Source: a virus
DNA: 24,545 nt
Strand: one strand, 5' to 3'
IMG/VR virus record: IMGVR_UViG_3300027782_000350
Coordinates: 1 to 24,545 of that record
The notes under the pieces are model-generated. The model saw only the letters and a list, made by a program, of their open reading frames with translations, was not told the DNA's origin and did not search any database. The position numbers were made by a program, and so were the translations under genes. Shown one piece after another: positions 437-18,986 of this stretch (positions are counted from its first letter, which is position 1; each line of letters opens with the position of its first letter).

Positions 437-472
437 CAAATATAAAAAAAATATAATATAGTTATGACAAAA
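437..472 (-). promoter_or_regulatory. Bacteroidota-type promoter for the minus-strand gene
   Basis: Read on the minus strand, TTTTG (472-468) is followed after 23 bases by TATATTTG (444-437), matching the TTTG...TAnnTTTG pattern of Bacteroidota housekeeping promoters. Transcription would start near 431, about ten bases before the ATG at 420. The 23-base spacer is slightly longer than the usual 19-21. The element overlaps the plus-strand late motif at 452-463 and the first codons of the gene at 464. Confidence 0.5.
452..463 (+). promoter_or_regulatory. Late promoter-like motif, copy 1
   Basis: TATAATATAGTT lies directly against the ATG of the protease gene. The same core TAATATAGTTAT recurs only before the genes at 3040 and 18987, all late-type genes. 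If TATAAT acts as a -10 element, transcription would begin at or next to the start codon, giving a leaderless or nearly leaderless mRNA. No shared -35 element is visible among the three copies. A translation-initiation role is an alternative. Confidence 0.55.
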
Positions 473-1423
473 GATATACCAATCTATAAAATTACTATAG
501 ATCCTGAGTACTCAGATGGCGAAGAGTTAGGGATTGAGCAAATAGCTTTCACCTCAACTCCTGCTATTGTTACTAAGGGGATGGCATTTGATGAGCATAA
601 GAAATTGTTTTTCTCAGATGACCTAAAGTATAGAGTAGTAGCTCCTGCCATGATTCCTATGGAAATCTATAGGAATGATGAGAATGATGAAGAGTACTAT
701 GTACAATTTACAGCTGAGACTATTGAGCAGATTCATTCTAAGTTCATGCAAGACCTATCTAATAGGAATGTCTTTAACCTAGAGCATGATACTGATAAGA
801 CAGTACCTGCTTATGTACTTGAGGCATGGATAGTAGAAGATCCTAAGAAAGATAAAGCCTACTCAAGCTATGGTATTGAAGTACCTAAAGGCACATTAAT
901 GGTAACAGCTCAGGTAACTGATAAGGAGTACTATAATGAGCTAGTAAAGAATGAGCAGATAGGATTCTCAATAGAGGGATTTCTAGGCTTAAAACTAAGT
1001 AATCAATTAAATAATAAATATAGTATGAAGTTACCTGATGGAGAACATCTAATCGAGGGTAAGATCTACATCGTTGTTGATGGAGAAATTACTGAGATAA
1101 AAGATGCACCTGTTGTTGAAGAAGAAGCAATGACAGAAGAGATTGCACTAGAAACAGTAGTAGAAGAGGAAGTAGTTACAGAGACACCTGCCACAGAAGA
1201 GATGGCTATTGATCCTGCTGCTGATGCTGAAGCTATACTAGCTATAGTTCAACCTGTAATTGATGAGCAAATCAATGCTTTAATAGCAATGATAGCTGAT
1301 TTAAGAAATCATATGGAGGAGGTTATGGCTGAAGATGTTGCTACTGAGGAAGTCGTAGCTACTAAACTATCACAGCATGATAAATTCAGTATGGTAAGTA
1401 AATTTTTAAAAAATAATAACTAA
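464..1423 (+). CDS. Prohead protease (XkdF-like) with scaffold-like C-terminus
   Basis: This is probably the capsid maturation protease. Residues about 55-175 resemble the XkdF-type phage serine protease: YRVVAPAMIP near 56, NLEHD with candidate catalytic His108, EAW near 120, and GFSIEGF with candidate nucleophile Ser169. Residues about 205-319 are very rich in Glu, Ala and Val with a likely coiled coil near 255-290, as expected of an internal scaffold, and end in a basic tail. Head assembly normally needs both a protease and a scaffold. No separate scaffold gene lies between this gene and the major capsid gene, so one protein may serve both roles. The gene starts directly after the late motif. 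The protease call rests on motif pattern and position; the scaffold role is inference. Confidence 0.75.
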   Translation: MTKDIPIYKITIDPEYSDGEELGIEQIAFTSTPAIVTKGMAFDEHKKLFFSDDLKYRVVAPAMIPMEIYRNDENDEEYYVQFTAETIEQIHSKFMQDLSNRNVFNLEHDTDKTVPAYVLEAWIVEDPKKDKAYSSYGIEVPKGTLMVTAQVTDKEYYNELVKNEQIGFSIEGFLGLKLSNQLNNKYSMKLPDGEHLIEGKIYIVVDGEITEIKDAPVVEEEAMTEEIALETVVEEEVVTETPATEEMAIDPAADAEAILAIVQPVIDEQINALIAMIADLRNHMEEVMAEDVATEEVVATKLSQHDKFSMVSKFLKNNN

Positions 1424-1439
1424 ATAAAAAACAAAAAAA

Positions 1440-2375
1440 ATGAGTAGAAAATTAAGATTTGACTTGGACATTGATGCTAGTGCATTATTACAAGCTAACA
1501 GCGAAGCATTTTACAGCCGAGCTTATTTAAACGAGGAAGTAGTAGACAACTACCGTACATTACCAGGAGTAAAGTATAAGACTAAGATTTCTAATGTTGT
1601 CTTTGGACAGGTATTGCAGGCAGAGAACTGTGGATGGAACTCTTCAACTGATGAGCTTGCATCTGTAGAGATTGATGTATGTGGATTATCAGCAATGGCA
1701 GAGATTTGTCAATTCCAATTAGAGCAGTCTTTTGTATCATTACAAATGACTAAAGGATCTAATGGTGATTTCACTGTTGCATCTTTCATGGATTACTATT
1801 GGAATGAGATGTCTAAGACAATCGCTGAGAACATTGAGAAATTACGTTGGTCAGGTGATACTGAATCAGAAACTGCTGCACTTGCTTTATGTGATGGATA
1901 TAAGAAGTCACTAGTAGCTGATGCTGCTAATGTAATTGAAATTACATCTCCTGTAGCTATTACACCATCTAATGTACTTGCTAAATTAGCTTTAGTATAT
2001 GCTGCAATTCCTGCTGCTGTTATTGCTAATCAAGAAGAGTTGAGATTGTATGTATCTTCTCCTGTAGCTACTGCTTATCGTGCTGCTGTTGCTGCATCTA
2101 ACACTCAAGCTAACTTGACTCAAGCATTAGACTTTACTTATCTTGGAATAAAGATGGTATTATGTCCTGGAATGCTTGGTCTATCTACAATCGTAGCTTC
2201 ACCTCGCTCAAATTTTATCTATGCTTTTGATGCTGAAGGCGATGGTAAAGCATTACGAGCTATCAATTTAGCTGATACTATTGCTGAGCCTGTAATCAGA
2301 ACTCGTGCAAATATGAAAGTAGGATTTACTCATGTTAATGGTAATGAGATTGTATTCTACAACTCTGCATCTTAA
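1440..2375 (+). CDS. Major capsid protein (HK97-fold likely)
   Basis: This 311-residue protein follows the protease by 16 bases and has the length and position of a siphovirus major capsid protein. The C-terminal part, with a strand-rich YLGIKMVLCPGM segment, RSNFIYAFDAEGD and a final VGFTHVNGNEIVFYNS strand, resembles the P-domain end of HK97-fold capsid proteins. There is no Shine-Dalgarno sequence: the upstream bases are an A-rich run, a typical strong start in Bacteroidota. Codon use differs from neighbours. Arg is often CGT/CGA/CGC, and I count 12 CpG in 0.94 kb against one or two per kb in nearby genes, suggesting selection for very high expression. Fold assignment is by context, not by alignment. 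Confidence 0.8.
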   Translation: MSRKLRFDLDIDASALLQANSEAFYSRAYLNEEVVDNYRTLPGVKYKTKISNVVFGQVLQAENCGWNSSTDELASVEIDVCGLSAMAEICQFQLEQSFVSLQMTKGSNGDFTVASFMDYYWNEMSKTIAENIEKLRWSGDTESETAALALCDGYKKSLVADAANVIEITSPVAITPSNVLAKLALVYAAIPAAVIANQEELRLYVSSPVATAYRAAVAASNTQANLTQALDFTYLGIKMVLCPGMLGLSTIVASPRSNFIYAFDAEGDGKALRAINLADTIAEPVIRTRANMKVGFTHVNGNEIVFYNSAS

Positions 2376-2394
2376 TTAACTAATTTATAAATCT

Positions 2395-2414
2395 AAGGGA
2401 GTGCAAGCTCCCTT
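2395..2414 (+). terminator. Hairpin between capsid and tail-tube-like genes
   Basis: AAGGGAG (2395-2401) pairs perfectly with CTCCCTT (2408-2414) around a 6-base loop. Only a short, interrupted T tract (TTTACTT) follows, so it is probably a partial terminator or an mRNA-stabilising or processing hairpin that sets different levels for the capsid gene and the next gene. Confidence 0.5.
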
Positions 2415-2431
2415 TACTTAAAACATATACA

Positions 2432-2956
2432 ATGAGCTGTGAAGCATTAATTTCAATCGAGAAGCCGTGTGATTCAAACACGGGAGGAATAAGAACAGTA
2501 TGGATCTGTCAACAAGAAAATGTTACTACTGCTACTCCTGCTTGGGAGATAACATCATTAGTTCTTACAGATCCTGCTAATGTCTATGCAATCAATAGAA
2601 ATACAGGTAACTATACAGAAGAGACTGCTCAAGATTTATTGAGTGGATCTACAGTAGTTACTCAGACTATTACTCTAATGTTTAATCGTAGAGACAAAGA
2701 TAAGTCAGAAGCTATCAGTGTACTTGGATCAGGACAGCAGTATTTAGCAGTATTTGTATTAGATGCAAATGGTAAGTATTGGTACTTTGAGAATGTACAA
2801 CTTACTGCTACAGGTGAGGGATCAGGTACAGCTCGTGCTGATGGATCTAAATATTCTATCACACTATTAGCTGAGTCAGATCACTTGGCTTATGAGGTAC
2901 TTAGTAGTGAGATTGCAGGTAACACAGGAGATTTCCCATTACCTACTCAAGCATAA
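2432..2956 (+). CDS. Structural protein, likely tail tube / major tail protein
   Basis: This 174-residue protein is rich in beta-strand-forming and Thr/Ser stretches, with ITLMFNRRDKDKSEA and a YLAVFVLDANGKYWYFENV hairpin near the middle. Such single-domain beta proteins next to the capsid gene are often the major tail protein. Like the capsid gene, it uses some CGT Arg codons and carries about five CpG in 0.5 kb, well above its neighbours, which fits a highly expressed virion component. It starts 17 bases after the hairpin at 2395-2414 and is followed by a strong terminator. The tail-tube role is inferred from fold style, expression signature and position. It could instead be a head decoration protein. 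Confidence 0.55.
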   Translation: MSCEALISIEKPCDSNTGGIRTVWICQQENVTTATPAWEITSLVLTDPANVYAINRNTGNYTEETAQDLLSGSTVVTQTITLMFNRRDKDKSEAISVLGSGQQYLAVFVLDANGKYWYFENVQLTATGEGSGTARADGSKYSITLLAESDHLAYEVLSSEIAGNTGDFPLPTQA

Positions 2957-2975
2957 TCTTAACACCCTAATAATT

Positions 2976-3006
2976 AAAGCTCTAGTAATACTAGGGCTTT
3001 TTTTTT
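2976..3006 (+). terminator. Intrinsic terminator after capsid module
   Basis: AAAGC-T-CTAGT pairs with ACTAG-G-GCTTT around an AAT loop: an 11-bp stem with one G-T pair, followed by six or more T. It lies 20 bases after the stop of the tail-tube-like gene and just ahead of the second late motif, so it separates two transcription units. Confidence 0.85.
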
Positions 3007-3025
3007 AAACATTTTTTGACCTTAG

Positions 3026-3039
3026 TATAATATAGTTAT
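3026..3039 (+). promoter_or_regulatory. Late promoter-like motif, copy 2
   Basis: TATAATATAGTTAT, identical over 14 bases to the copy at 452-465, lies directly before the ATG at 3040. It follows a terminator by only 20 bases, where a promoter for the portal-lysis unit would be expected. The start codon is shifted by two bases relative to the other copies. Confidence 0.6.
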
Positions 3040-3381
3040 ATGATATACATTAAAAAAGATGAGGTCAATCAGATTATCCTTACTCTCACTGAGGTAAGTA
3101 CACTGCCTACTCCTTATTATTTATTTGTTTTTCAGAATGAAATGGACAAGCTGTCTGCACCTATTACATTCTACACTGCTGATCTATCAGCTTATCCTGA
3201 AAGATTCAATCAGTTTGAGCTAGATGAGCCTGTAGATTTGGAACTAGTAAAAGGACAGTATACATACAGCATCTATGAGTCAAGTACCACACCTCCAACT
3301 ATTGCTAACTCTACAGGAGTAGTGATTGAAGAGGGCAGGATGGTAGTATCAGGACCAATAGTATCATCAATTTACGAATAA
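3040..3381 (+). CDS. Conserved-looking small virion protein before portal
   Basis: This 113-residue protein begins MIYIKKDEVNQIILTL and has alternating hydrophobic patterns typical of an all-beta domain. I recognise the type (an MIYIKK start, a PYYLF strand, a YTYSIYESS strand and an IEEGRM strand near the end) as a small protein often found beside structural genes in Bacteroidota phages, but no function is known to me. It is the first gene after a terminator and the second late motif, and it lies two bases before the portal gene, so the two are almost certainly co-transcribed. A structural role is inferred from this context. Confidence 0.6.
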   Translation: MIYIKKDEVNQIILTLTEVSTLPTPYYLFVFQNEMDKLSAPITFYTADLSAYPERFNQFELDEPVDLELVKGQYTYSIYESSTTPPTIANSTGVVIEEGRMVVSGPIVSSIYE

Positions 3382-3383
3382 TT

Positions 3384-4670
3384 ATGGCATTAAAAGATTT
3401 TTTTAAAACAGTAAAGCATGAAATAGTAGAGGGATATCAATCATTCTCTACTCCATTCCTAAAAGTAGGAGGTGCAAATCTAACTCTACCTTATGTTAAT
3501 GGTAGGAATCAGACTAATGGCTATATTCCATTTGGTCAGGATAATCTGTATCCAGAACTACTCAATCAAATTTTCTATTCTAGCCCACTGCATGGCTCAA
3601 TAGTGGGGTATAAAGTGAATGCAGCTGTAGGAGGTGGATTTAATATAGTAGCTGATAGACTTACACTTGAAGATAAGCTAGAGCTATATACATTAGAGAG
3701 AAAATTAAACATAAAAAAGGTAGTACCTGCAGTAACTCAGCAACTAATACTACACAATAGAGTATATTTTAAGTTATGCTTTGATGATAAGATGAAGCTC
3801 ACAAAGATAGTCAATCTATCTCCTGAGAAACTTAGAGTAAACTTAGATAGAAAGAGATACTATATCTGTGATGATTGGGCTAGTAGGATTGGAGTCCAGG
3901 AGATAAGGAGATATACTCCTACCTCTAGAGACTATGAGCAGTTATTTGTATATGAGGTAGAATGTATTGGGCAGGATTACTATCCATTACCTCAATACAC
4001 CTCAGCACTTAACTTTGCATTCCTATCAGGTGAGCTTAGCTATTTTGCTAAAAGTAATATCCAAAATTCAGTATTTCCATCCTTTGCTATGATGTTCCCT
4101 AAGAGACCTCAGTCTGAGGAGGAGAAAAACATGATAAGAAATACTATTGATAGATTGAAAGGTGCTGCCAATGCAGGTAAAGCTGTAGCATTCTTTGCTA
4201 ATTCACAGGACCAACTACCTAAGATAGAGTCACTGCCTACAAATGGTAATGATAAACTATTTCAGGAGGCATCACAGCTGAATACTGAGCAGATTTGTTT
4301 TAGTCATACTATAGATCCTATCTTAATGGGAATCCGTACTACAGGCTCACTAGGTAATGGCTCAGATATTAAGCAGGCTTATATCATATTTGAGAAGAAT
4401 GTAGTAATGCCACTCAGAGACCAGGTTGCTGACATCTTTAATGAGCTGTTATTCATAGCTAAGATAGATGCAGATTTCACTATCAATAACTATCAGATAA
4501 TTAACGAGGCAATAGTAGAGCTTGAGGGAGATACCTCTAAGACTAATGATGCACTTAATACATTGAATCCTGCAATAGCTGCTAAGGTCCTAGAAAATAT
4601 GTCTAAGAATGAGATAAGAGCTTTAGCATCTTTACCTCCATTGAATGATACACCAACACCAACAATCTGA
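3384..4670 (+). CDS. Portal protein
   Basis: This is the 428-residue portal, which would form the ring at the capsid vertex through which DNA enters. The N-terminal part contains PFGQDNLYPELLNQIFYSSPLHGSI, a pattern of phage portals in which short strands precede a stem-loop region. Residues about 230-270 (FPKRPQSEEEKNMIRNTIDRLKG) and the segment FSHTIDPILMGIRTTGSLGNGSDIKQAYIIFEKNVVMPLRDQVADIFNELL resemble the clip, stem and wing helices of the SPP1-like portal family. The C-terminus is hydrophilic. It overlaps the next gene by one base (TGATG). Length, motif pattern and neighbours agree well. Confidence 0.85.
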   Translation: MALKDFFKTVKHEIVEGYQSFSTPFLKVGGANLTLPYVNGRNQTNGYIPFGQDNLYPELLNQIFYSSPLHGSIVGYKVNAAVGGGFNIVADRLTLEDKLELYTLERKLNIKKVVPAVTQQLILHNRVYFKLCFDDKMKLTKIVNLSPEKLRVNLDRKRYYICDDWASRIGVQEIRRYTPTSRDYEQLFVYEVECIGQDYYPLPQYTSALNFAFLSGELSYFAKSNIQNSVFPSFAMMFPKRPQSEEEKNMIRNTIDRLKGAANAGKAVAFFANSQDQLPKIESLPTNGNDKLFQEASQLNTEQICFSHTIDPILMGIRTTGSLGNGSDIKQAYIIFEKNVVMPLRDQVADIFNELLFIAKIDADFTINNYQIINEAIVELEGDTSKTNDALNTLNPAIAAKVLENMSKNEIRALASLPPLNDTPTPTI

Positions 4671-5236
4671 TGCTATACTTTATAACAGAAACTTATCTAA
4701 AGAATAATACACCCATCACAGCTAATGTAGATGTAAATAATGTTACTCCCTACCTAGCTACTCAAGCTCAGCTAAGAATCATGCCTATCTTAGGTACTAC
4801 ATTCTACAATGACTTGCTAACTAAGTACAATGATCAGACATTAGATCCTGATGAAGAGACATTAGTAACATTTATACAGCCTATTATAGCATGGAGAGCA
4901 GCTGAAGATGCTGTATTTGGTCTATCATTACAGCTAAAGAATAAAGGATTGCAAACTCAATTTGGAGATAACAGCTCATCTGTAGATAGAGGTACAATAG
5001 CATTTAGTATGGAACACTATGCACAAAAGGCTGCATTTTTTGAGCAAAGATTAATCAGATACCTACTTAAGAACAGAGCTTTGTATCCAATATTCACCGG
5101 TACAACTAACCGAGATACTGACCTTAGACCTATGATTGATGGCTGTAGCTGTTTATCTAATGGATTACTAGAGTGTAATGGTCTATGTGGAGGTGCAGGT
5201 AATAATGGCTATAACAATTCAATCTTAATAATATGA
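4670..5236 (+). CDS. Head-tail connector-like protein
   Basis: This 188-residue protein directly follows portal with a one-base overlap, the usual place of a head-tail connector or adaptor. It is mainly helical in residues 25-140 (LATQAQLRIMPILGTTFYNDL, then VTFIQPIIAWRAAEDAVFGL), which fits the gp6/gp15-type connector fold. The last 30 residues are odd: a cysteine cluster at 159, 161, 169 and 173, followed by a Gly/Asn-rich tail. This could bind a metal or form disulfides. The connector role is inferred from position and fold style. Confidence 0.6.
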   Translation: MLYFITETYLKNNTPITANVDVNNVTPYLATQAQLRIMPILGTTFYNDLLTKYNDQTLDPDEETLVTFIQPIIAWRAAEDAVFGLSLQLKNKGLQTQFGDNSSSVDRGTIAFSMEHYAQKAAFFEQRLIRYLLKNRALYPIFTGTTNRDTDLRPMIDGCSCLSNGLLECNGLCGGAGNNGYNNSILII

Positions 5237-5394
5237 AGCACTCAGGCATCTTATCATTCTTGACTTTTGGCTTTGGATATCTTTCAGGTATCTCATTAGT
5301 ATTTGCTGATCAGTTACATTTTAAATTCTTAGGATGCCTATTAATATCCTACTTTACTTTTTTACTAGCATCTGAAATAGAATCTAAAGAATGA
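5233..5394 (+). CDS. Small two-pass membrane protein of the lysis region
   Basis: A 53-residue reading frame starts with ATG inside the stop region of the previous gene (ATGA overlap) and ends in an ATGA overlap with the holin gene. It has two likely membrane segments, about residues 6-24 (ILSFLTFGFGYLSGISLVF) and 31-47 (FKFLGCLLISYFTFLLA), and a charged tail EIESKE. Such small membrane proteins next to a holin may be a second holin or an antiholin. The frame is supported by tight coupling on both sides. The function is inference. Confidence 0.65.
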   Translation: MKHSGILSFLTFGFGYLSGISLVFADQLHFKFLGCLLISYFTFLLASEIESKE

Positions 5395-5852
5395 AAGCAC
5401 AAATATCCCTACTACTAATATCTATACAATCAGAACTATTGACACTTATATCTATATGCTTTGCATTCTTTTTACCAATAAGTGGCATCCTGTTAATGAT
5501 AGGAGTATTAATATGTATTGATACTATCACAGGTATTTGGAAAGCTAAGAAATTAGGGGAGAAAATAACTAGCAGAAAGCTCTCATCTATAATCAGCAAG
5601 CTAGCACTCTATGAAGTAACTGTGATTATGTTCTTTTTGATAGACCAATTCATACTAAATGATATCATGCTTACTTTTTTCAGTGTACCATTCATGCTCA
5701 CTAAAGTAGTGGCATTGGTCCTAGCTAGTATTGAGGTGATGTCTATCAATGAGTCAATAAAACAAGTAAAAGGGGTGGACCTTTGGCAAAGTGGAAAGGC
5801 ATTATTTGCTAGAGCTAAGGAAATTAAAGAGGACCTAAACAAACTGAAATGA
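5391..5852 (+). CDS. Phage holin (Holin_4_1-like)
   Basis: This 153-residue membrane protein probably forms the inner-membrane holes that let the endolysin out. Hydrophobic segments lie at about residues 12-45, 70-90 and 92-115. The motif [20 protein letters not shown], between the first and second membrane segments, is characteristic of the phage_holin_4 (PF05105) family, as are the hydrophobic N-terminus and the long charged C-terminal helix. It overlaps the endolysin gene by four bases (ATGA), the classic holin-endolysin arrangement. Confidence 0.8.
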
Positions 5853-6313
5853 CTAGATGGGAACTTACATCTAAATACGGTACTGCTAATGTAACAGGAG
5901 CAGGATACTTAGTGAAGATTAAGCTACCTTATCCAATGAGAATAGCTTGGGACTTAGACAGCACTGTCAATACTATGATGTGCCATAAACTAGTAGCAGA
6001 TAATTTTACAGCTGTATTTAATGAGCTTTTAGCTACCTATGGATATGATAAGATTAAGGAGTTAGGAATAGATCTATTTGGTGGATGTTTCAACTATAGA
6101 AAGATGAGGGGAGGTACAGCATTATCCATGCATTCATGGGGGATAGCAATAGACTTAGATCCTGCTAGAAATCTACTTAAGGAGTCATCAAAGACTGCTA
6201 GATTTGCTAGACCTGAATACAAGCCAATGATAGATATATTCTATAAGCATGGCTTTATATCTTTAGGTAGAGAGAAGAACTACGATTGGATGCACTTTGA
6301 AATAAAAGAATGA
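5849..6313 (+). CDS. Endolysin, peptidase M15 (D-Ala-D-Ala carboxypeptidase-like)
   Basis: This 154-residue zinc peptidase of the M15/VanY type should cleave peptide bonds in peptidoglycan. The zinc ligands are visible: [13 protein letters not shown] supplies His95 and Asp102, and DWMHFE near the end supplies His149, with Asp146 as candidate catalytic acid. FNYRKMRGG near residue 81 provides the conserved arginines upstream of the first zinc ligand. No signal peptide is present, so export should depend on the holin encoded immediately upstream. The short length matches phage M15 endolysins with no separate cell-wall-binding domain. Confidence 0.88.
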
Positions 6314-6729: not shown

Positions 6730-6742
6730 GTTTACACCATAT

Positions 6743-7507: not shown

Positions 7508-7532
7508 CTTAGCACTTGTTTCCATGTTAAAG

Positions 7533-7571
7533 AAAGCAGTTGTAAGCTCCCCAGCACGCAGCTGCTTTTTT
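7533..7571 (+). terminator. Intrinsic terminator ending the late portal-lysis unit
   Basis: AAAGCAGTTG (7533-7542) pairs with CAGCTGCTTT (7559-7568) through ten pairs including one G-T, around a 16-base loop, followed by a run of six T (7566-7571). It lies 26 bases after the stop of the exonuclease gene and before the regulatory region of the early genes. Confidence 0.75.
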
Positions 7572-7741: not shown

Positions 7742-7771
7742 TTGCAGATATAAAACTTTTTAATATCTTTG
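7742..7771 (+). promoter_or_regulatory. Early promoter, Bacteroidota housekeeping type
   Basis: TTG (7742-7744), a 19-base spacer and TATCTTTG (7764-7771) match the TTTG/TTG-N19-TAnnTTTG consensus closely. Transcription should start near 7778, about 27 bases before the first early gene at 7805. The segment ATTGCAGATAT at the -33 end recurs in the promoter at 14090. TATAGTTAT at 7775-7783, around the predicted start, shares nine bases with the late motif. Confidence 0.8.
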
Positions 7772-7804
7772 GCGTATAGTTATTAACAATTAAAACTTTT
7801 ACAC

Positions 7805-10871: not shown

Positions 10872-13228
10872 AAGTAACTTTTTACAAATCAATTAAGGAT
10901 GTATCACCTTATCAGAATAAGGATGTAGGATTCTATCTAGATCGCATTAAGAATGGTAAGTCTGAGCAGTTATGTAAGGACCTTAGATTCTCTACTGATA
11001 AAGAGGAAAGGAAATCTATTAAGATGCAGCTGCCTGTTGTTACCTTTGGAGGTGATTTCAGTAAGAGAAACAATGCATCTCTAAGAAAGGCATCAGGATT
11101 ACTGACTTTAGATTTTGATGAGGTGCAGGATATAGCTGCTCTGATTGTAGAACTGAAAGCTCACAAATCTATCTTCTCCTGTTGGACATCACCATCAGGC
11201 AATGGAGTGAAAGCTCTAGTCAAAATACCAATAGTACAGGATGACAAAGAATACAAAGAATATTTTAAGCAAATATCTGCAGTATTTAATGGAGTAGATG
11301 AATCAGGTAAGGATATTGCTAGAGCTTGCTTTGAGTCTTATGATCCTGATATCTATGTTAATTTAGATGCTGAGAATTATATCATTGACTATGATGTTAT
11401 CCCATTTGAGAGCAGTGAGGTGGGTAGTATTACTAACATTAAGGTATTAGATACTGATGAGATAGCTAATAAGCTGATGACTTGGTTTAAAAAGAAGTAT
11501 AATTCACAAAATAGAAACTCCTCACTTTACAAATTAGCAGCTGCCTTTAATGATTTTGGAGTGGATAAAAATACCTGTCAAGATTATTTAAAAGGATTTG
11601 AGCAGAAAGATTTTGGATCTGTAGAGATACTAGCTTTGATAAATTCTGCCTATAAAAAGACTGCTAACTTTAACACTAAGCAATTTGAGGATAAAGATAA
11701 AAAAGATAAGCTGATTAACTTTGTTCTAAGTGGCAAGTCTGATGCTGTCATCTTAGAGGAGTTTAAAGAGTACAATAAAGAGAATATTGAGTCAGAGATT
11801 CAGACTATTAAGGAGGTTATTAAAGTAGATGAGTTTTGGAAATATGATTTCAAAGGTGATGTATTAATTATACCATACCGATTCAAGCTATTTCTAGAGA
11901 ATCTACAGTACTATAAGTACTATCCTGTAGCTAATACTAAGACCTTTGTTTTTATTACTAAGAATGAGAACTTTATTAATCATGTCTCTGAATTTCAGAT
12001 AAAGGATAGAGTAATGGAGTACCTGGTCCAATCAAATCGGATACCTGTATTTGATGCTGTAGCTGAGAAGTCTAAACTATTCACTCCTCAATACCTCAGC
12101 ATGATAGATACTGCTAATGTAGAGATGGAAAGGGATGGGATAGACTATGGTATGATTTACTATAAGAATGCAGCTGTCAAAGTATTTGCTAAGCACCATG
12201 AGATATATGAATACTCAGAGCTAAAGGGATATGTATGGAATAATCAGATAATAGATAGAGATTTAATAGATGCTGATCACCATGAGTCAATGTTCAGGAG
12301 CTTCATTTGGTTTATCTCAGGGCAGGAGGTAGAGAGATATGATACTATGAAGAGTGTAATAGGTTATATGCTGCACTCTTATAAGACCTCTGCTAATAAC
12401 AAAGCAATCATTCTCAATGATGAAACTATCTCAGATAATCCTAATGGAGGTAGTGGTAAAGGGATTCTAATTAATGCTATTGGATACATGAAAAAAGTTA
12501 GCACTATTGATGGTAAGACCTTTGACTCAAATAAATCATTCCCTTATCAGACTGTCTCTTCTGACTGCCAGGTCCTAGCATTTGATGATGTAAGAAAGAA
12601 TTTTAACTTTGAGAGCTTATTTAGTATAATCACTGAAGGTCTTACTATTGAATACAAAGGTAGAGATGCAATTAAACTACCTGTAAAAGACTCACCTAAA
12701 GTCCTTATCTCTACTAACTACACTATCAAAGCAGATGGTGGCTCTTTTAAGAGGAGGATGTTTGAGGTGGAGCTCAGTAGTTACTTTGGTACACATCACA
12801 CTCCATTTGATGAATTTGGCTTTATGCTGTTTGAGGATTGGGATGAACAGGAATGGGCAAGGTTTGACCATTACATGATTAACTGCTTAAATTATTACTT
12901 AGAGAATGGTCTAGTAGAATCTGAGGCTAAGAATCTAGAGTTGAGAAAGTTTATCAATGAGACATCTCAAGACTTTATTGAATGGGTAGATAATAAGAAT
13001 TTAGGATTTGATCAGAGATTGAATAAGGTGTCAATGTTTGAGAATTTTATAGCAGAATATACTGACCAAAAGAAGTACCTGACTAACAGAACATTTAATA
13101 AATGGTGTAAGAAGTATGCAGAATATAATGGTAAGGAGTATGTAGATGGATCTAGCAATGGTGCTAGGTGGTTTGAGATTAAGACACAAAGAGATCCTGA
13201 TGTATGGGATAGTATAAATTATAATTGA
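10868..13228 (+). CDS. Primase-helicase: VirE_N/BT4734-like N-terminus plus SF3 (D5-like) helicase
   Basis: This 786-residue protein probably primes and unwinds phage DNA. The N-terminal domain carries GLLTLDFDEV (77-86, acidic pair), then WTSPSGNGVKALVKI (106-120) and ARACFESYDPDIYVN (about 150), the pattern of the BT4734-like/VirE_N domain seen in Bacteroidota primases. The C-terminal helicase has Walker A NPNGGSGKG (about 524-532), Walker B VLAFDDV (about 569-575), sensor PKVLISTNY (about 610-618) and an arginine-finger segment SFKRRMFEVEL (about 626-636). No separate helicase or polymerase was found in the window. It follows the candidate origin and structured leader. The start at 10868 is coupled by ATGA to the leader frame. 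Confidence 0.88.
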   Translation: MKVTFYKSIKDVSPYQNKDVGFYLDRIKNGKSEQLCKDLRFSTDKEERKSIKMQLPVVTFGGDFSKRNNASLRKASGLLTLDFDEVQDIAALIVELKAHKSIFSCWTSPSGNGVKALVKIPIVQDDKEYKEYFKQISAVFNGVDESGKDIARACFESYDPDIYVNLDAENYIIDYDVIPFESSEVGSITNIKVLDTDEIANKLMTWFKKKYNSQNRNSSLYKLAAAFNDFGVDKNTCQDYLKGFEQKDFGSVEILALINSAYKKTANFNTKQFEDKDKKDKLINFVLSGKSDAVILEEFKEYNKENIESEIQTIKEVIKVDEFWKYDFKGDVLIIPYRFKLFLENLQYYKYYPVANTKTFVFITKNENFINHVSEFQIKDRVMEYLVQSNRIPVFDAVAEKSKLFTPQYLSMIDTANVEMERDGIDYGMIYYKNAAVKVFAKHHEIYEYSELKGYVWNNQIIDRDLIDADHHESMFRSFIWFISGQEVERYDTMKSVIGYMLHSYKTSANNKAIILNDETISDNPNGGSGKGILINAIGYMKKVSTIDGKTFDSNKSFPYQTVSSDCQVLAFDDVRKNFNFESLFSIITEGLTIEYKGRDAIKLPVKDSPKVLISTNYTIKADGGSFKRRMFEVELSSYFGTHHTPFDEFGFMLFEDWDEQEWARFDHYMINCLNYYLENGLVESEAKNLELRKFINETSQDFIEWVDNKNLGFDQRLNKVSMFENFIAEYTDQKKYLTNRTFNKWCKKYAEYNGKEYVDGSSNGARWFEIKTQRDPDVWDSINYN

Positions 13229-13229
13229 T

Positions 13230-13643
13230 ATGAGTATAGATAGCAAATTACTTTTAAAAAGACATATTATGAATTTAATTTTAGGTAAAGATTCAGGATA
13301 TTATATAACTAAGGAGCAGATGCCATTAGTAGATTATTATTTAAACATTGAATTTCATTTTGCTTTATTAGAACAAGCTGGAGTTTATAAAATTATATTT
13401 GATAATAATACATGGTATATTGGTAAGACAAAAAATATAGTAAAAAGAATTTGGGAACATTTACAAAAAGGAAAATCTAATTTTGAATTTGTAGAAATTA
13501 AACAATATCATATAGACAATAACATTCCATTTACTGTATTAAAATTATCAGATAATGAAGAGGATGAAATAAAATTAATTCATTTACATTTAGATATAGA
13601 TAATAATTACTGTTATAATAAAGAACATAATAATAGAATCTAA
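13230..13643 (+). CDS. GIY-YIG endonuclease, probably selfish/homing
   Basis: Residues 50-77 read AGVYKIIFDNNTWYIGKTKNIVKRIWEH, giving the GIY variant GVY, the YIG motif (WYIGKT), the conserved Arg73 and His77 of the family. An acidic Glu-rich segment follows near 107-113, where the catalytic Glu is expected. Base use differs from neighbours: two 60-base samples (13261-13320 and 13441-13500) are 25% and 20% GC, against 43% at 13681-13740 in the next gene. It sits snugly between primase-helicase and nuclease genes with no spacer. This fits a recently acquired free-standing homing endonuclease. Active-site motifs are intact. Confidence 0.8.
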   Translation: MSIDSKLLLKRHIMNLILGKDSGYYITKEQMPLVDYYLNIEFHFALLEQAGVYKIIFDNNTWYIGKTKNIVKRIWEHLQKGKSNFEFVEIKQYHIDNNIPFTVLKLSDNEEDEIKLIHLHLDIDNNYCYNKEHNNRI

Positions 13644-14107
13644 TGAACAAAGAAAACAAAACACTACTCAAAGCCTTAGAGATTAACTACCTCACCCTAA
13701 AGCACCCTACCATGCCATACATTACAGCATCAGATTGGAATGATAACTCTGCTAATGCTCTCACTAAATGTATTATTCACTTTCTAACCTATTCAGGCTT
13801 TCAAGCTGAGAGAATTAATACAATGGGAGTTTATAGAGAGGGTAAGAAGATACAGGTAGGTGAGAATACTAGACAGCTGAAAGGCACTTATACTCCTAGC
13901 ACAGGTACAAAAGGATCTGCTGATATTTCTGCCACCATTAGAGGTAGATCAGTTAAGATTGAGGTAAAATATGGTAAGGATAAGCAGTCAGAAGTGCAGA
14001 AGAGGTATCAGGAATCAGTAGAAGCTGCAGGGGGTACATACTTTATTGCAAGAAATTTTGATGAATTTATGATATTTTATTTAAAATTCATTGCAGATAT
14101 GAATTAA
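13643..14107 (+). CDS. PD-(D/E)XK nuclease, VRR-NUC/Holliday junction resolvase-like
   Basis: The 154-residue protein has a late nuclease core: GTKGSADISATI (Asp94), KIEVKYGKD (Glu107, Lys109), then KQSEVQKRYQESVEAAGGTYFIARNFDEF. This Asp...Glu-x-Lys plus helix with Gln and final AGGTYFIAR strand is typical of VRR-NUC-type phage nucleases, which can resolve branched DNA. The N-terminal half is helical with no clear domain. The gene starts in a one-base overlap with the GIY-YIG gene. A role in replication or recombination intermediates fits its neighbours. Exact substrate unknown. Confidence 0.75.
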   Translation: MNKENKTLLKALEINYLTLKHPTMPYITASDWNDNSANALTKCIIHFLTYSGFQAERINTMGVYREGKKIQVGENTRQLKGTYTPSTGTKGSADISATIRGRSVKIEVKYGKDKQSEVQKRYQESVEAAGGTYFIARNFDEFMIFYLKFIADMN

Positions 14108-14120
14108 TTGATTATCTTTA
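14091..14120 (+). promoter_or_regulatory. Second early promoter, before the recombination genes
   Basis: TTG (14091-14093), a 19-base spacer and TATCTTTA (14113-14120) match the Bacteroidota consensus with one change in the last base. The 11-mer ATTGCAGATAT (14090-14100) is the same as at 7741-7751 in the promoter of the first early unit, and the spacer is also 19 bases. Transcription would begin near 14127, before the ERF gene at 14141. The -33 part lies in the last codons of the nuclease gene. Confidence 0.65.
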
Positions 14121-14140
14121 CTGAAATTTAAAACTTAATT

Positions 14141-14680
14141 ATGGAAACAAAAACAAAAGCTGTAGTACCAGCACCTGTACTAACTCTGCACCAAAAGCTC
14201 CACAAGGCTAAGCAGTCAATCGGCAAAGTAGCTAAGAATGCTACCAATCCACACTTTAAAAAGTCCTACAGTGACATCAATGCAATCACTGAGGCAGTAG
14301 AGCCTATCTTATTAGAGAATGGTCTACTATTATTACAGCCTATTCAGGGTAATTCAGTATGTACTCAGATTATTTGCATAGATTCTAATGAGTCTATTGA
14401 GTCATGTATGGAATTACCTGCAGGACTTAATCCTCAGCAAGTAGGATCTGCAGTTACTTACTATCGTAGATATACTCTGAGCAGTATCTTATGCTTACAA
14501 TCAGTAGATGATGATGCAAATCTAGCTAGTGTACCTGTTAAGGCAGCTAAGCCTGGACTATCTAAAGAAAGATTTGAGGAGGCATTAGTATCTATTCAGG
14601 ATGGTAAGTTTACTATCCCTAAGCTAAGAGAGACCTTTGAGCTTACAGATTTACAACTTAAAGCAATCATGTTACTATGA
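14141..14680 (+). CDS. erf: ERF-family single-strand annealing protein
   Basis: This 179-residue protein matches the ERF recombinase family: NPHFKKSYSDINAITEAVEPILLENGLLLLQP (residues 36-67), then GSAVTYYRRYTLSSILCLQSVDDDAN (102-127), the two signature blocks. ERF proteins form rings on single-stranded DNA and anneal complementary strands, allowing genome circularisation and recombination. The C-terminal part after residue 130 is a short helical tail. The gene has its own promoter-like element and overlaps the exonuclease gene by four bases (ATGA), a classic annealase-exonuclease pair. Confidence 0.9.
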   Translation: METKTKAVVPAPVLTLHQKLHKAKQSIGKVAKNATNPHFKKSYSDINAITEAVEPILLENGLLLLQPIQGNSVCTQIICIDSNESIESCMELPAGLNPQQVGSAVTYYRRYTLSSILCLQSVDDDANLASVPVKAAKPGLSKERFEEALVSIQDGKFTIPKLRETFELTDLQLKAIMLL

Positions 14681-15297
14681 AATGGCATCCATCTTCACTC
14701 GGAAAATTAATGACAGCATCTCGGACTAAGTCAGAGGTGCTATCTGAAACTACTAAGACTTACATTAGAGCTGTAGCTAAGCAGGATTTCTACGGTTACA
14801 ATGTAGAACTTAATAACAAGTACATTAATAAAGGTAAGATGCAGGAGAATGATTCTATTGATCTACTCAATACTGTATCATTCACTAGCATGGTAAAGAA
14901 CACTGAGAGACTGAATAACGAATGGCTCACAGGAGAGGCTGATATAGTTCTAGATGACCAAATAGTAGACATAAAGACCTCATGGTCCTTAGAGACTTTC
15001 CCTGCTACCTCAGAAGAGGGTATAAATAAAGATTATGAGTGGCAGCTAAGAGCTTACATGATGTTATATGATAAGAACTATGCTACTCTATGCTATTGCA
15101 TGGTCTCTACTCATCCATCACTACTGAATGAATGGGAGAACTTATCACTGCATCAGGTTGATCACATAGCTCCTGAGAAGAGAATCACTACTCTACTCTT
15201 TACTAGAGACCTGGAGCTTGAGGAGGAGATAAAGGTAAGACTGCATCACTGCACTGAGTACTATGTTAAGTATATTAATCAATTAAATAATAAATAA
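14677..15297 (+). CDS. PD-(D/E)XK exonuclease partner of ERF (YqaJ/RecB-like)
   Basis: The 206-residue protein starts MKWHPSSLGKLMTASR, a typical opening of phage YqaJ/lambda-exonuclease-like nucleases. The core motifs follow: GKMQEND with Glu57, LTGEADIVLDDQIVDIKTSW with Glu87, Asp89, Asp98 and Lys100, and YEWQLRAYMMLY with Gln123. Such 5'-3' exonucleases cut back one strand so that the annealing protein can bind. It follows ERF with an ATGA overlap and precedes the SSB-like gene by two very small genes. Substrate polarity is known for the family, not shown here. Confidence 0.82.
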   Translation: MKWHPSSLGKLMTASRTKSEVLSETTKTYIRAVAKQDFYGYNVELNNKYINKGKMQENDSIDLLNTVSFTSMVKNTERLNNEWLTGEADIVLDDQIVDIKTSWSLETFPATSEEGINKDYEWQLRAYMMLYDKNYATLCYCMVSTHPSLLNEWENLSLHQVDHIAPEKRITTLLFTRDLELEEEIKVRLHHCTEYYVKYINQLNNK

Positions 15298-15298
15298 G

Positions 15299-15469
15299 AT
15301 GAGAGTTCAATTCTATGAGGCTGCTTTGATTGCAGCCATGCAAGCACTAATACACAACAATCCTGGCATCAGTGCTAAATATGCAGCTAAAAAAGCTGTT
15401 GAATATGCTACTGAGTTAACTATACTAGAGTATGGTGTTTCTAATCCATTCCCTGACAAAGTAGTATGA
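15299..15469 (+). CDS. Small helical protein, unknown function
   Basis: A 56-residue frame from ATG 15299, one base after the exonuclease stop, ending in an ATGA overlap with the next frame. It is Ala-rich and helical (FYEAALIAAMQALI, then AKYAAKKAVEYATELT), ending SNPFPDKVV. It fits the tightly packed operon. No function was recognised. Confidence 0.6.
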   Translation: MRVQFYEAALIAAMQALIHNNPGISAKYAAKKAVEYATELTILEYGVSNPFPDKVV

Positions 15470-15558
15470 CAGAGAAAACAATGGCAATAATCCTGATGCT
15501 GATAATATATGGATTGATAATACTAGGTATGTATAAATTAATAACAACTATAATATGA
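15466..15558 (+). CDS. Tiny membrane peptide
   Basis: A 30-residue frame between two ATGA overlaps (15466-15469 and 15555-15558). After MTEK it is almost wholly hydrophobic (residues 6-21, MAIILMLIIYGLIILG), so it would be a single membrane helix. It is short, but precise coupling at both ends supports translation. Function unknown. Confidence 0.45.
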   Translation: MTEKTMAIILMLIIYGLIILGMYKLITTII

Positions 15559-15884
15559 ATGAGTACAAAGTAAAAGGACTTATCAAAGTGATAGGTGATA
15601 CCGTACAGGTGACTGAGAAATTCTCTAAGAGAGAAGTAGTAATAACAGTAGAGGATGGCAAATATCCTCAGCACATCAGCCTACAGGCTACAGGAGACAA
15701 AACATCTCTACTAGATGGCTGTAGAGTAGGTGAAGAGGTAGAGGCATCATTCAATCTGAGAGGTAGAGAATGGCAGGATAAGCATTTTAACTCATTAGAG
15801 CTATGGAAAATAGAAGTATTGACTGCAGCTGCAACAGCTCCTGCTCATGTACCTGATCAACCTGGTGATGATCTCCCTTTCTAA
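15555..15884 (+). CDS. DUF3127-like single-stranded DNA-binding protein
   Basis: The 109-residue protein starts MNEYKVKGLIKVIGDTVQV and contains FSKREVVITVEDGKYPQHISLQATGDK and EASFNLRGREWQDKHFNSLELWKIEVL, the pattern of the DUF3127 family, an OB-fold-like group frequent in Bacteroidota. After an Ala/Pro-rich linker it ends DQPGDDLPF, an acidic tip ending in Pro-Phe like that of bacterial SSB, which recruits partner proteins. Together with ERF and exonuclease it would cover single strands during replication and recombination. Family call good; SSB function inferred from fold type, tip and neighbours. Confidence 0.75.
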   Translation: MNEYKVKGLIKVIGDTVQVTEKFSKREVVITVEDGKYPQHISLQATGDKTSLLDGCRVGEEVEASFNLRGREWQDKHFNSLELWKIEVLTAAATAPAHVPDQPGDDLPF

Positions 15885-15906
15885 AGGGCAGAGCCTAAAG
15901 GACTTT

Positions 15907-16068
15907 ATGATTAAAGAGACCAAGTCTAAGCTCACCCAAAGATATAAGCTCAGCCATTATGCTGAGGATATCGGAGTCTCTTACTGCTCCATTTGGAGAT
16001 TCACCAATGGTAAGGCTGTCAATGAGCAGTTCTACCTTAAATGGTGGAAAAATTATCTAAATAATTAA
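15907..16068 (+). CDS. Small helix-turn-helix protein
   Basis: From ATG 15907, preceded by AAAGGA five bases upstream, the 53-residue protein contains LSHYAEDIGVSYCSIWRFTNGKA, a Cro/repressor-like helix-turn-helix, ending in an aromatic helix (FYLKWWKNYL). In-frame ATGs at 15868 or 15847 would overlap the SSB-like gene and lack such a ribosome site, so 15907 is preferred. It is the last gene before a terminator. A regulator acting at the operator-like palindromes near 7600-7720 is conceivable, but this is not shown. Confidence 0.65.
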   Translation: MIKETKSKLTQRYKLSHYAEDIGVSYCSIWRFTNGKAVNEQFYLKWWKNYLNN

Positions 16069-16107
16069 TAACTTTATGGCAGTCTTATGGCTGCCTTTGT
16101 TATTTTT
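16067..16107 (+). terminator. Intrinsic terminator after the replication/recombination unit
   Basis: AATAAC (16067-16072) pairs with GTTATT (16099-16104), and inside it GGCAG (16078-16082) pairs with CTGCC (16091-16095) around an 8-base loop, followed by T. The stem starts at the stop codon of the HTH gene. The sequence TATTTTTG at its 3' edge resembles a -7 box and could serve the next gene, but no matching -33 element is present. Confidence 0.75.
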
Positions 16108-16112
16108 GGCAG

Positions 16113-16364
16113 ATGAACATACTAACCTACATTGCAATATCATGGTTTTTAGTAAACTTTGAGCCATTACAACTGCTAATAGACTCAATCTATAGCAAAT
16201 TCAAGCCTAGCATTCTAGCAATGTATCTACACTCATCTGCTACCTGTATTAAATGTGTATCTTTTTGGCTAACATTAATCTGCACCTGGTCATTTATTGA
16301 AGCAACTATTGTAGCTCTATTATCGTTTATATTACAGGAATGTTTACTGAAGCTGAGCAAGTAA
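16113..16364 (+). CDS. Membrane protein with CxKCxSFW motif
   Basis: The 83-residue protein has hydrophobic segments at about residues 1-26, 33-55 and 57-79, and the motif CIKCVSFW (45-52) between them. I recognise this small membrane protein with a Cys-x-x-Cys-type motif followed by FW as recurrent in Bacteroidota phages; its role is not known to me. It starts six bases after a terminator and overlaps the next gene by 25 bases. Confidence 0.6.
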   Translation: MNILTYIAISWFLVNFEPLQLLIDSIYSKFKPSILAMYLHSSATCIKCVSFWLTLICTWSFIEATIVALLSFILQECLLKLSK

Positions 16365-16543
16365 TAATACAACAGGTATTCAGTCTACCTGAGAAAGAGC
16401 AGTCTTATAAGATTCATCTAATAAAACTCAAGCCCATTAAGATAAGACTGACAGCTACTCCTGATAAAGAATGCTTTTGTGGTAGTGTGAGGAGAAAGAT
16501 ATGGCTTAAGGATTTCAAGCAATGGTATGAGACCTATACTTGA
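16340..16543 (+). CDS. Small Cys-containing phage protein, unknown function
   Basis: The 67-residue protein has a strand-rich middle (KIHLIKLKPIKIRLTAT) and the motif CFCGSVRRKIWLKDFKQWYE near the end, with C-x-C and a basic-aromatic helix. I recognise this motif from small proteins encoded just before terminase genes in Bacteroidota phages. No function is known to me. It overlaps both neighbours (25 and 17 bases), so it is translated with them. Confidence 0.6.
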   Translation: MFTEAEQVIIQQVFSLPEKEQSYKIHLIKLKPIKIRLTATPDKECFCGSVRRKIWLKDFKQWYETYT

Positions 16544-17054
16544 CAACTACATATCAGCTCACTACAAAGAGATAAGGAAATATACTAACTATTTTCTAGT
16601 AAGAATGAAGTCTACTATTTCAGCTGATGCTGTAATAAATAACTCTTTTTTATATTTATGTAATATAGATATAGAGGTGACTGATCCAGGTAAGGTCAAA
16701 GCATATCTACTCAATACTATTAAGATGCAAATCCTATGGTCTACATCACTAACTAATAGGCAAGAGAGAGTGACAGCTACTGATAATACTATGCCGATAG
16801 TGATGGATGATGATACTGATTTGTGGGATAAGATTAGAGAAGATATGCAGTATCAGAACAATATGGCAGTGATAGAGACATATAGAGGGAGGATAACAGA
16901 TAGAATTAAGCTGATAGTTTTTCAGACTTACTTTGATAAAGGATACAGTACAGCTAGAGCAATGGCAGAATATTTTAAAATACCTGTTACATCTGCTCAC
17001 TATTGGATACAAGAGATTAAAAACGATTTAAAAAACCTAAGAGATGAAAATTAA
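16527..17054 (+). CDS. Sigma-factor-like protein, candidate late regulator
   Basis: The 175-residue protein has the layout of a small sigma-70 family protein. Residues 10-75 resemble region 2: helix, then ADAVINNSFLYLCNIDI, then PGKVKAYLLNTIKMQILW. Residues 120-172 resemble region 4: ITDRIKLIVFQTYFDKGYSTARAMAEYFKIPVTSAHYWIQEIKNDL, a helix-turn-helix of the type that reads a promoter -35 element. An acidic linker lies between (TMPIVMDDDTDLWDKI). The match is moderate. Its location just before the packaging and tail genes suggests late transcription control, possibly at the TAATATAGTTAT motif; this is inference. An alternative is a helix-turn-helix protein of another family. Confidence 0.6.
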   Translation: MRPILDNYISAHYKEIRKYTNYFLVRMKSTISADAVINNSFLYLCNIDIEVTDPGKVKAYLLNTIKMQILWSTSLTNRQERVTATDNTMPIVMDDDTDLWDKIREDMQYQNNMAVIETYRGRITDRIKLIVFQTYFDKGYSTARAMAEYFKIPVTSAHYWIQEIKNDLKNLRDEN

Positions 17055-17265
17055 AGATGAGTACATTGGAGCTAAGATCTCCCACAAGGGTAACAGGATT
17101 ACTTTAGATGTTAATAGATATGATTACTTTGTATCTATAGGTCTAGGCTATATGTTTGAAGAGCCAACAGTATCTGAGCCTAAAGTAGTGAAGTATAAAG
17201 CAGTCAAAGGACCAATACCTGAGCCTGAGACTATAGTAGAGGAGGAGGAGAATGGGCAGGACTAA
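17044..17265 (+). CDS. Small protein preceding small terminase, unknown function
   Basis: The 73-residue protein has a compact beta start (MKIKDEYIGAKISHKGNRITLDV, then YDYFVSIGLGYMF) followed by a Pro/Glu-rich tail. It overlaps the previous gene by 11 bases and the small terminase gene by 14. I recognise the type as common directly before terminase genes in Bacteroidota phages. Its role is unknown to me; a head-completion or packaging accessory is possible. Confidence 0.6.
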   Translation: MKIKDEYIGAKISHKGNRITLDVNRYDYFVSIGLGYMFEEPTVSEPKVVKYKAVKGPIPEPETIVEEEENGQD

Positions 17266-17677
17266 ACTAATAGAAACTCCTGAGAAGCTAATGGAGATAT
17301 TTGAGGAGTATAGAGCTTATACTCTAGCTAATCCTAGACATAAATGGGTGCTATCACAAAAGACTGCAGAGATGGTAGCAGAGCCTTTGAGAGTACCTTT
17401 AACTAATGAGGGATTTGAGATATTCTGCTATAAGAATTACTCAGATGTACATAACTATTTTGATAATCCTGATAACAGATATTCTGAATTTAAGACAGTC
17501 TGTTCGTACATAAAGAGAGAAATCAGAAATGATCAGATACAGGGTGGCATGGTTGGTCAATACAATCCATCCATCACTCAGAGACTAAACAACCTAACTG
17601 AGAAATCAGACATCACTACCAATGGTAAGGATATATCTGAAATCAAAGTGAACATCATTACTAGTGCAAAGGATTGA
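17252..17677 (+). CDS. Small terminase subunit
   Basis: The 141-residue protein would recognise phage DNA and start packaging. The helical N-terminal half contains PEKLMEIFEEYRAYTLANPRHKW, and the C-terminal region contains GQYNPSITQRLNNLTEKSD, a pattern I know from P22 gp3-like small terminases of Bacteroidota phages. It lies 110-130 bases before the large terminase, the expected order, with one very small gene between. The middle (FEIFCYKNYSDVHNYFD) is consistent with DNA-binding and oligomerisation helices. The specific DNA sequence it reads cannot be seen here. Confidence 0.8.
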   Translation: MGRTKLIETPEKLMEIFEEYRAYTLANPRHKWVLSQKTAEMVAEPLRVPLTNEGFEIFCYKNYSDVHNYFDNPDNRYSEFKTVCSYIKREIRNDQIQGGMVGQYNPSITQRLNNLTEKSDITTNGKDISEIKVNIITSAKD

Positions 17678-17678
17678 A

Positions 17679-17819
17679 ATGATGTGTCAAGCTGTTGAGG
17701 CTTACATCTATTCTAAGAAAGGAGTGCCTGTAAAGATAAACAGGATAGCAATTATCAGTGATAGTAGGCAGATGGAAATGCTAGCCTATGCTTATGCTTA
17801 TGCCAATGGAGATAGATAG
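17679..17819 (+). CDS. Small protein between terminase genes, unknown function
   Basis: A 46-residue frame from ATGATG at 17679, one base after the small terminase stop, ending 14 bases into the large terminase gene. It is beta-alpha in style (AVEAYIYSKKGVPVKINRIAII, then EMLAYAYAYANG) with no known motif. It may help couple translation of the two terminase genes. Confidence 0.5.
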   Translation: MMCQAVEAYIYSKKGVPVKINRIAIISDSRQMEMLAYAYAYANGDR

Positions 17820-18957
17820 TACAGTTATATTCCAAAAGAACTATGAAGCTCTCACTGATCCTGCACTAAGATTCATTATCAATGAGGGTGGGAGTAGAAG
17901 CTCTAAGACCTACAGCCTTTGTCAGATGCTAATAGTATATTGCTATCAGAATAAGAATAAGGTAGTATCAATCATTCGTAAGACATTCCCTGCACTGAGA
18001 GCTACAGTCATGAGGGACTTTCTAGAGATCATGAAGAGCATGGATATCTATGAGGTGACCAATCATAACAAGTCAGAGCATATCTACTCATTCCCTAATG
18101 GATCTATAGTGGAGTTCTTTAGTGTAGATGATGAGCAGAAGATAAGGGGTAGAAAGAGAGATGTGGCATGGTGCAATGAGGCCAATGAGTTATTCTATGA
18201 TGACTTTACTCAGCTTAACATGAGAACTGAGGATAAGTTAATCTTTGATTACAATCCCTCTGAGTCATCCTCCTGGCTCTATGACCTGCCAACTGAGGAA
18301 AGCATACTGATTAAGTCTACCTATCGAGACAATCCATTCCTACCTGATAGCATTAAAAAGCAGATAGAAGACTTGAAGAGAACTGATGAGGCAATGTATC
18401 AGATATATGCTCTAGGGGAGAAAGCTATTTCTAAGAGTAACATCTATTCTAATTGGACATTTATAGCTCATAGACCAACTAAGTTCGTGAAGTATGTCTA
18501 TGGCTTAGACTTTGGATACAATCACCCTACAGCTCTAGTCAGAGTGTATTACTGTGACAATGACATCTTCATTGAGAAGATAATCTATGAGAGCTACCTC
18601 ACCACTACTCAGCTGATAGAGAAGATGGATATACTAAATGTGGATAAGAATATAGAGATTATGGCAGATTACTCTAGACCTGAGATAATTGCCGAGATGA
18701 ATACTGCAGGCTATGATGTGCATAATGCTAACAAGGTAGTTAAGAAAGGCATAGATAACATTAAGACCTTTGGAGTATTTTGTCAGGAGGATAAGCAGAT
18801 AATGAAAGAGTATGAGAACTATAAGTGGAAAAAGATAGGTGACCAAATCATGGATGAGCCTGTCAAATTATATGACGATGCTATGGATGCTATCCGATAT
18901 GCTACCACTTACATCAGGCAGGAGTATTACACTGATGACTCCTATTATTCGTTCTAA
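17806..18957 (+). CDS. Large terminase subunit
   Basis: This ATPase and nuclease pumps and cuts phage DNA. Starting at ATG 17806, the Walker A-like NEGGSRSSKT lies near residues 26-35, Walker B with catalytic Glu (VAWCNEANE) near 120-128, and a coupling motif in FDYNPSE near 147-153. The nuclease domain shows YGLDFGYNHPTAL (Asp near 235), IMADYSRPEI (Asp near 288) and YDDAMDAIRYA (Asp pair near 357), the three acidic sites of the RNase H-like fold. An earlier in-frame ATG at 17788 would add six Met/Leu/Pro residues. Length of 383 residues is on the short side but complete. Confidence 0.92.
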   Translation: MEIDSTVIFQKNYEALTDPALRFIINEGGSRSSKTYSLCQMLIVYCYQNKNKVVSIIRKTFPALRATVMRDFLEIMKSMDIYEVTNHNKSEHIYSFPNGSIVEFFSVDDEQKIRGRKRDVAWCNEANELFYDDFTQLNMRTEDKLIFDYNPSESSSWLYDLPTEESILIKSTYRDNPFLPDSIKKQIEDLKRTDEAMYQIYALGEKAISKSNIYSNWTFIAHRPTKFVKYVYGLDFGYNHPTALVRVYYCDNDIFIEKIIYESYLTTTQLIEKMDILNVDKNIEIMADYSRPEIIAEMNTAGYDVHNANKVVKKGIDNIKTFGVFCQEDKQIMKEYENYKWKKIGDQIMDEPVKLYDDAMDAIRYATTYIRQEYYTDDSYYSF

Positions 18958-18974
18958 ACAAAAACCTATGTCAA

Positions 18975-18986
18975 TGTAATATAGTT
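18975..18986 (+). promoter_or_regulatory. Late promoter-like motif, copy 3
   Basis: TGTAATATAGTT ends directly against the ATG at 18987, sharing the 12-base core TAATATAGTTAT with copies at 454 and 3028. It occupies a 29-base gap after the large terminase, where the tail-fibre unit would begin. The first two bases are TG rather than TA. Confidence 0.55.

Follow-up and report, generated by a model that had tools for sequence, protein, structure and literature searches.

The stretch of DNA analysed here (the window, all 24,545 nucleotides of IMGVR_UViG_3300027782_000350) is a 24.5-kb virus record of the IMG/VR type, and no isolated phage was found that nearly matches it. Its protease-capsid, portal-lysis and post-terminase gene units each begin at a copy of a 12-base motif, TAATATAGTTAT. 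An earlier reading made from the letters by themselves (the sequence-only reading) had placed exact copies at 454-465, 3028-3039 and 18977-18988, each against an ATG, and these positions and contacts were reproduced exactly, all on the plus strand; the minus strand of the window had zero copies. Counted from the first T of the motif, the ATG lies at +10, +12 and +10 (464, 3040 and 18987). In 300 dinucleotide shuffles of the window TAATATAGTTAT occurred 0.05 times on average and at most once. A fairer control, since the word was picked after looking, is any 12-mer in three copies, of which AT-rich shuffles gave a mean of 0.8 each. Because shuffles also yield some 12-mer three times, the copy number by itself is weak evidence, and the case is carried by the start-codon placement and the comparison with relatives. 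A nine-base part, TATAGTTAT, has five plus-strand copies in the window (457, 3031, 7775, 18980 and 22347); the one at 7775 is kept in close relatives and sits in the early leader, without the rest of the late element.

In relatives the motif is one half of a two-part element, AACA-N16-YAATATA, and the upstream half is present at all three sites of the window (AACA at 435, 3008 and 18957). The sequence-only reading had seen no common -35, but AACA lies 20 bp upstream of TAATATA (19 bp at 454) at every site, and a promoter without a -35 was ruled out by this fixed spacing. Among distinct AACA-Nk-TAATATA sequences with k from 6 to 30, 78 had k=16, 15 had k=11, nine had k=6 and 0-5 had any other spacing, counts which include near-identical orthologues and are not independent events, independence coming from different genes and lineages. 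At the protease promoter k is 15 in groups A, B, C and E of the relatives, and AACAAA was found at this position in 17/17 genomes. Alignment of the sites showed a variable spacer sequence between two constant boxes about two helical turns apart, a geometry that fits recognition by a sigma factor. A scan for Escherichia coli-type sigma-70 promoters did no better than on shuffles, and a search of Rfam found no RNA family.

Protein searches of IMG/VR fetched hundreds of related loci. In the first set of relatives 101 of 103 exact motif copies were at an ATG, and the element was found at the heads of late transcription units in the window and in 16 related IMG/VR genomes of about 30 kb, whose putative sigma proteins (described below) have identities down to about 40%. 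Across these 17 genomes a simple profile ranked late-unit starts at the top in nearly all cases, namely after terminase, before a tail-region gene (MAYK...), before the protease and before the 113-residue gene leading the portal/lysis unit; the exceptions include one minus-strand match within a coding region in group D. When records of relatives were searched whole, 43/43 had matches, usually two to four, compared with 0-2 for a reversed-pattern control. The pattern is specific to this phage family: a scan of IMG/VR for AACA-N16-TAATATAGTTATG gave 119 in-family matches among the 123 listed, judged by contigs encoding the family's proteins, and 118 of the 119 listed were at an open reading frame (ORF) of at least 40 codons or at one leaving the contig end. 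A scan of IMG/VR for CAATATA-NNN-ATGG was less specific: by a loose criterion, 79 of 120 matches belonged to the family. Many copies inside coding regions had been named beforehand as an argument against a promoter; in contigs of the family the matches are nearly all at gene starts. Two Flavobacterium phages for which a search turned up no sigma-gene relative lack the late promoter at late genes. As expected of a phage late promoter, the element stands at the head of late gene units, their late expression being judged from gene content, and is found again in related phages, and the earlier proposal of such a promoter, distinct from the early type TTG-N19-TAnnTTTG, is very probably correct in view of placement and conservation.

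Just upstream of the terminase genes lies ORF 16527-17054, which codes for a protein of 175 amino acids. TIGR02985 gave a weak match over most of its length (E 0.026, below the curated cut-off), and the NCBIfam model TIGR02937 (sigma70-ECF) matched 6 of 14 aligned family members, with a best E of 1e-4. AlphaFold models built from 14 and 27 sequences reached a predicted local distance difference test (pLDDT) of 76.9 and 74.1, and the PDB fold matches of both were chiefly extracytoplasmic function (ECF) and other sigma-70 factors (best 9n9q chain C, E 5.2e-3 and 1.6e-3), among them SigL, SigH, AlgU, SigW, SigmaE, and region 4 of SigmaE on its -35 DNA. Sigma-named matches were also found in a viral library. 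The model has two helical domains and a low-confidence linker (about 75-95), so that its predicted fold shows sigma regions 2 and 4 with a linker, within about 150-200 residues. A profile search of PDB sequences returned solely an insignificant TetR match. From the predicted fold the protein is probably an ECF-type sigma factor and the likely reader of the late promoters; the sequence-only reading had overlooked it.

The first base of the -10 and the putative sigma factor were found to change together. Among the counted promoters this base is always T in groups A, B and E, and T in six and C in two promoters of group D; it is C in all promoters of group C (6/6) and group F (7/7), compared with 45 T and two C elsewhere. 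In the sigma tree group C falls inside B (98/96) and group F next to D (99/98), so the change from T to C occurred twice, in two lineages. The residues following the invariant W71 (72-75; window 16740-16751) are mostly [SNK]TS in A, B, D and E, QNL in C and TQG in F, and because they differ in the same groups as the -10 base, they are suggested as candidate contacts or specificity residues for the -10.

The element also keeps a close relation to the start codon. The ATG is held 10-12 bases from the first base of the -10 at most sites over the lineages, some group E genomes have a GTG at the same distance, 116 of 118 sites have no in-frame start upstream of the ATG, and the encoded proteins share conserved N-termini that begin at the ATG abutting the motif. 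If the -10 is YAATATA, or the TATAAT that overlaps it in some copies, transcription would start on the ATG or no more than about two bases away. At known ECF promoters, such as TGAAAC-N16-CGTA of SigW, transcription starts about 30 bases from AAC, a distance that in the late element would fall on the ATG. The position of the start codon thus predicts leaderless or nearly leaderless late mRNAs, which supports what the sequence-only reading had expected from the geometry. Leaderless mRNAs are scarce in flavobacteria: they make up 5.5% in Flavobacterium psychrophilum (PMC9723704), and 87% of predicted Flavobacterium johnsoniae transcripts have leaders of >10 nt (PMC6847099).

The pattern TTG-N19-TAnnTTTG was not found on the plus strand at the three late sites, and is present at 7742. 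A search of GTDB contigs with the sigma alignment found no relative, and by tblastn none of the isolated phages encodes a relative of the sigma gene. By terminase the nearest isolates are Flavobacterium phages (~33%), and because of these relatives and the host-type early promoter a Bacteroidetes host is suggested. At the protease promoter the -35 (window 435-444) reads on the opposite strand as a TAnnTTTG box, an overlap seen in 17/17 genomes, and in all 17 a leftward gene starts 11-17 nt downstream of that box, which suggests a bidirectional promoter with shared bases.

It is likely that the motif is the -10 half of a late promoter, AACA-N16-YAATATA-n3-ATG, which is read by host core polymerase carrying a phage ECF-type sigma factor encoded by ORF 16527-17054. 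In the proposed switch the early genes would be read by the host housekeeping sigma from the TTG-N19-TAnnTTTG promoter, and the sigma gene, placed at the end of the early/middle genes and before the terminase genes, would supply a factor that, once made, steers polymerase to the heads of the post-terminase, tail, protease-capsid and portal-lysis units, some four sites in each genome. As the -10 is mostly 3-5 bases before the start codon, these transcripts would have their 5' ends on the AUG or a few bases from it, and their translation would do without a leader. A fuller proposal can be made, in which the phage has its own ECF-class sigma with an AT-rich -10 unlike that of known ECF factors, the promoter is welded to the start codon, leaving almost every virion and lysis operon leaderless, and the -35 of the protease promoter doubles as the host -7 box of the divergent gene, with polymerases carrying phage and host sigma competing there; that all of this holds together we consider an evenly balanced matter.

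Several observations speak against the sigma-factor reading. ORF 16527-17054 has no Pfam or PHROG match, the whole-chain template modelling (TM) scores are low, the models are of moderate confidence and the profile matches are weak, and hhalign of the sigma profile against E. coli RpoE gave nothing, in a comparison of a single sequence with a shallow profile that has little power; the low TM-scores could be due to the two domains being differently placed. The -10 of the late element is TAATATA or CAATATA, whereas ECF factors typically read CGT, and the suggestive co-change of the -10 with the sigma factor rests on two events. With regard to the element itself, some of the genomes scored with the profile had also contributed sites to it, some high-scoring coding-region matches are shared by descent in groups B and C, where they lie within the gene that follows the sigma gene, and group F has weaker sites, with one late unit lacking a clear AACA.

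Other explanations of the motif were considered. Some 12-mer does recur by chance in AT-rich shuffles, but every lineage examined keeps the motif, both where the genes it heads are orthologous and where they are not, and a chance origin, ruled out by this conservation across relatives, is of negligible probability. A translation-initiation element of the mRNA, which the sequence-only reading had allowed for part of the motif, would agree with the fact that most copies abut the start codon and with initiation in Bacteroidetes, where Shine-Dalgarno sequences are lacking and adenines ahead of the start codon tune the process (PMC6847099). It is nonetheless highly improbable, as only about four genes per genome carry the motif, AACA is conserved about 30 bases upstream, and in L109, L118, L119, L120, L134 and L141 both boxes and their spacing are unchanged although the ATG is 17-26 nt away from the first -10 base. 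Because a start codon shifted 7-16 bases downstream leaves the element in place, it is a promoter and not a ribosome signal, and a translation element was ruled out.

Given a true late promoter, its transcripts might still carry a leader, with transcription starting further upstream or the true start codon lying further downstream. The -10 is only 3-5 bases from the ATG, which makes for a short discriminator and an uncertain exact start, and the members with an ATG at 17-26 nt must carry short leaders. A general leader appears unlikely, since an upstream start needs another promoter and none was seen, the ATG distance of 10-12 is kept at most sites across lineages and the N-termini are conserved from that ATG. 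It is also rather unlikely that the sigma-like protein is a RinA/ArpU-like activator, or that another phage protein reads the late promoter with the host sigma. RinA-type proteins are late regulators of similar size, the RinA family matches 2 of 14 members (E 0.006), and the sigma-factor profile matches are weak; however, the fold matches are to two-domain sigma factors along the entire chain, the spacing of the two boxes is the usual sigma geometry, and no host-type promoter was found at the late sites on the plus strand.

Phage late sigma factors and their cognate promoters are already known. ECF factors generally read AAC at -35 (PMC4153023), and the putative late sigma resembles SigW, SigmaE, AlgU and Bacteroidetes ECF factors in two-domain size, predicted fold and AAC in the -35, although its sequence similarity is weak and no anti-sigma gene was noticed. 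T4 gp55 is likewise a small, diverged phage protein of the sigma family that guides the host core polymerase to late promoters whose -10 is AT-rich. In T4 these promoters lack a -35, and gp55 has no counterpart of sigma-4 (PMC2988020), whereas the family of the window has a -35 (AACA at fixed spacing) and a predicted region-4-like helix-turn-helix. SPO1 gp28 and gp34 are phage sigma factors for middle and late genes and are essential for infection (PMC9429907); the likeness is one of sigma role, and the host and genome type of SPO1 are unrelated. In Thermus phage P23-45 the middle/late promoters form a class apart from the -10/-35 one (PMC7403470), but there the host sigma acts at extended -10 promoters, a phage protein blocks -35 use, and no phage sigma is involved. 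In TA-led leaderless bacterial genes the start codon follows a -10-like box at a distance of about 10-12 bases (PMC3160421), the same placement as in the late element, but they resemble sigma-70 housekeeping promoters. In the open literature, outside which most subscription journals fall, we found no description of this family, its sigma factor or its promoter, and an ECF-like version coupled to the start codon was not found described.

The system would represent a compact early-to-late switch in an uncultured phage family that has no close isolate, each genome having a single sigma factor and about four promoters. If the late mRNAs are leaderless, it shows how a phage can make structural proteins in hosts with ribosomes that ignore Shine-Dalgarno sequences. 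The natural co-change of -10 base and sigma factor offers ready pairs for the study of promoter specificity, and the two-part pattern can be used as a sequence signature of the phage family.

Table 1. Promoter elements and genes of the window
Feature	Position	Strand	Remarks
-35-like AACAAA, protease-capsid promoter	435..440	+	N13 after AACAAA, N15 after AACA; 17/17 genomes
TATATTTG, host sigma-A -7 box type (TAnnTTTG)	437..444	-	Read towards ORF 420..1; overlaps late -35
-10-like TAATATA, protease-capsid promoter	454..460	+	Predicted transcript start at or next to A464
Head maturation protease-like gene	464..1423	+	First of protease/major capsid unit; weak to moderate PHROG matches; ATG abuts motif
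Intrinsic-terminator-like hairpin	2976..3000	+	Just upstream of portal-lysis promoter
-35-like AACATT, portal/lysis promoter	3008..3013	+	
-10-like TAATATA, portal/lysis promoter	3028..3034	+	ATG at 3040
113-residue late gene	3040..3381	+	No assigned function; heads portal-holin-endolysin unit
Portal gene	3384..4670		Portal-lysis unit
Endolysin gene	5849..6313		Portal-lysis unit
Host-type early promoter TTG-N19-TATCTTTG	7742..7771	+	Heads early genes; conserved in close relatives
ECF-type sigma factor-like protein	16527..17054	+	175 residues; proposed late-promoter reader; predicted fold, weak profile matches
Terminase large subunit	17788..18957	+	Stop codon shares one base with -35 of third promoter
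-35-like AACAAA, post-terminase promoter	18957..18962	+	
-10-like TAATATA, post-terminase promoter	18977..18983	+	ATG at 18987
First gene of post-terminase unit	18987..19328	+	No family match; probably tail/receptor-binding, by position only

Further features were seen in the window and its relatives. An extra late-type promoter lies near the sigma gene in group D (L142:8547 and relatives, after the sigma gene) and in group F (G029, G030 and G033), and none was seen near the sigma gene in the window. The 31-kb record IMGVR_UViG_3300042433_000009 (G006) carries the post-terminase promoter and gene start twice, at about 470 and at 29652 of the turned record, which may stem from a duplication or from overlapping ends of a circularly permuted genome. 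The early leader TTTGGCGTATAGTTATYAACAATTAAAACTTT (window 7764-7800) is near-invariant in close relatives, more than a promoter requires. Finally, AGCTACTCTAGT occurs three times (19485, 19563 and 19851) within ORF 19342-20121, a post-terminase gene with internal repeats.

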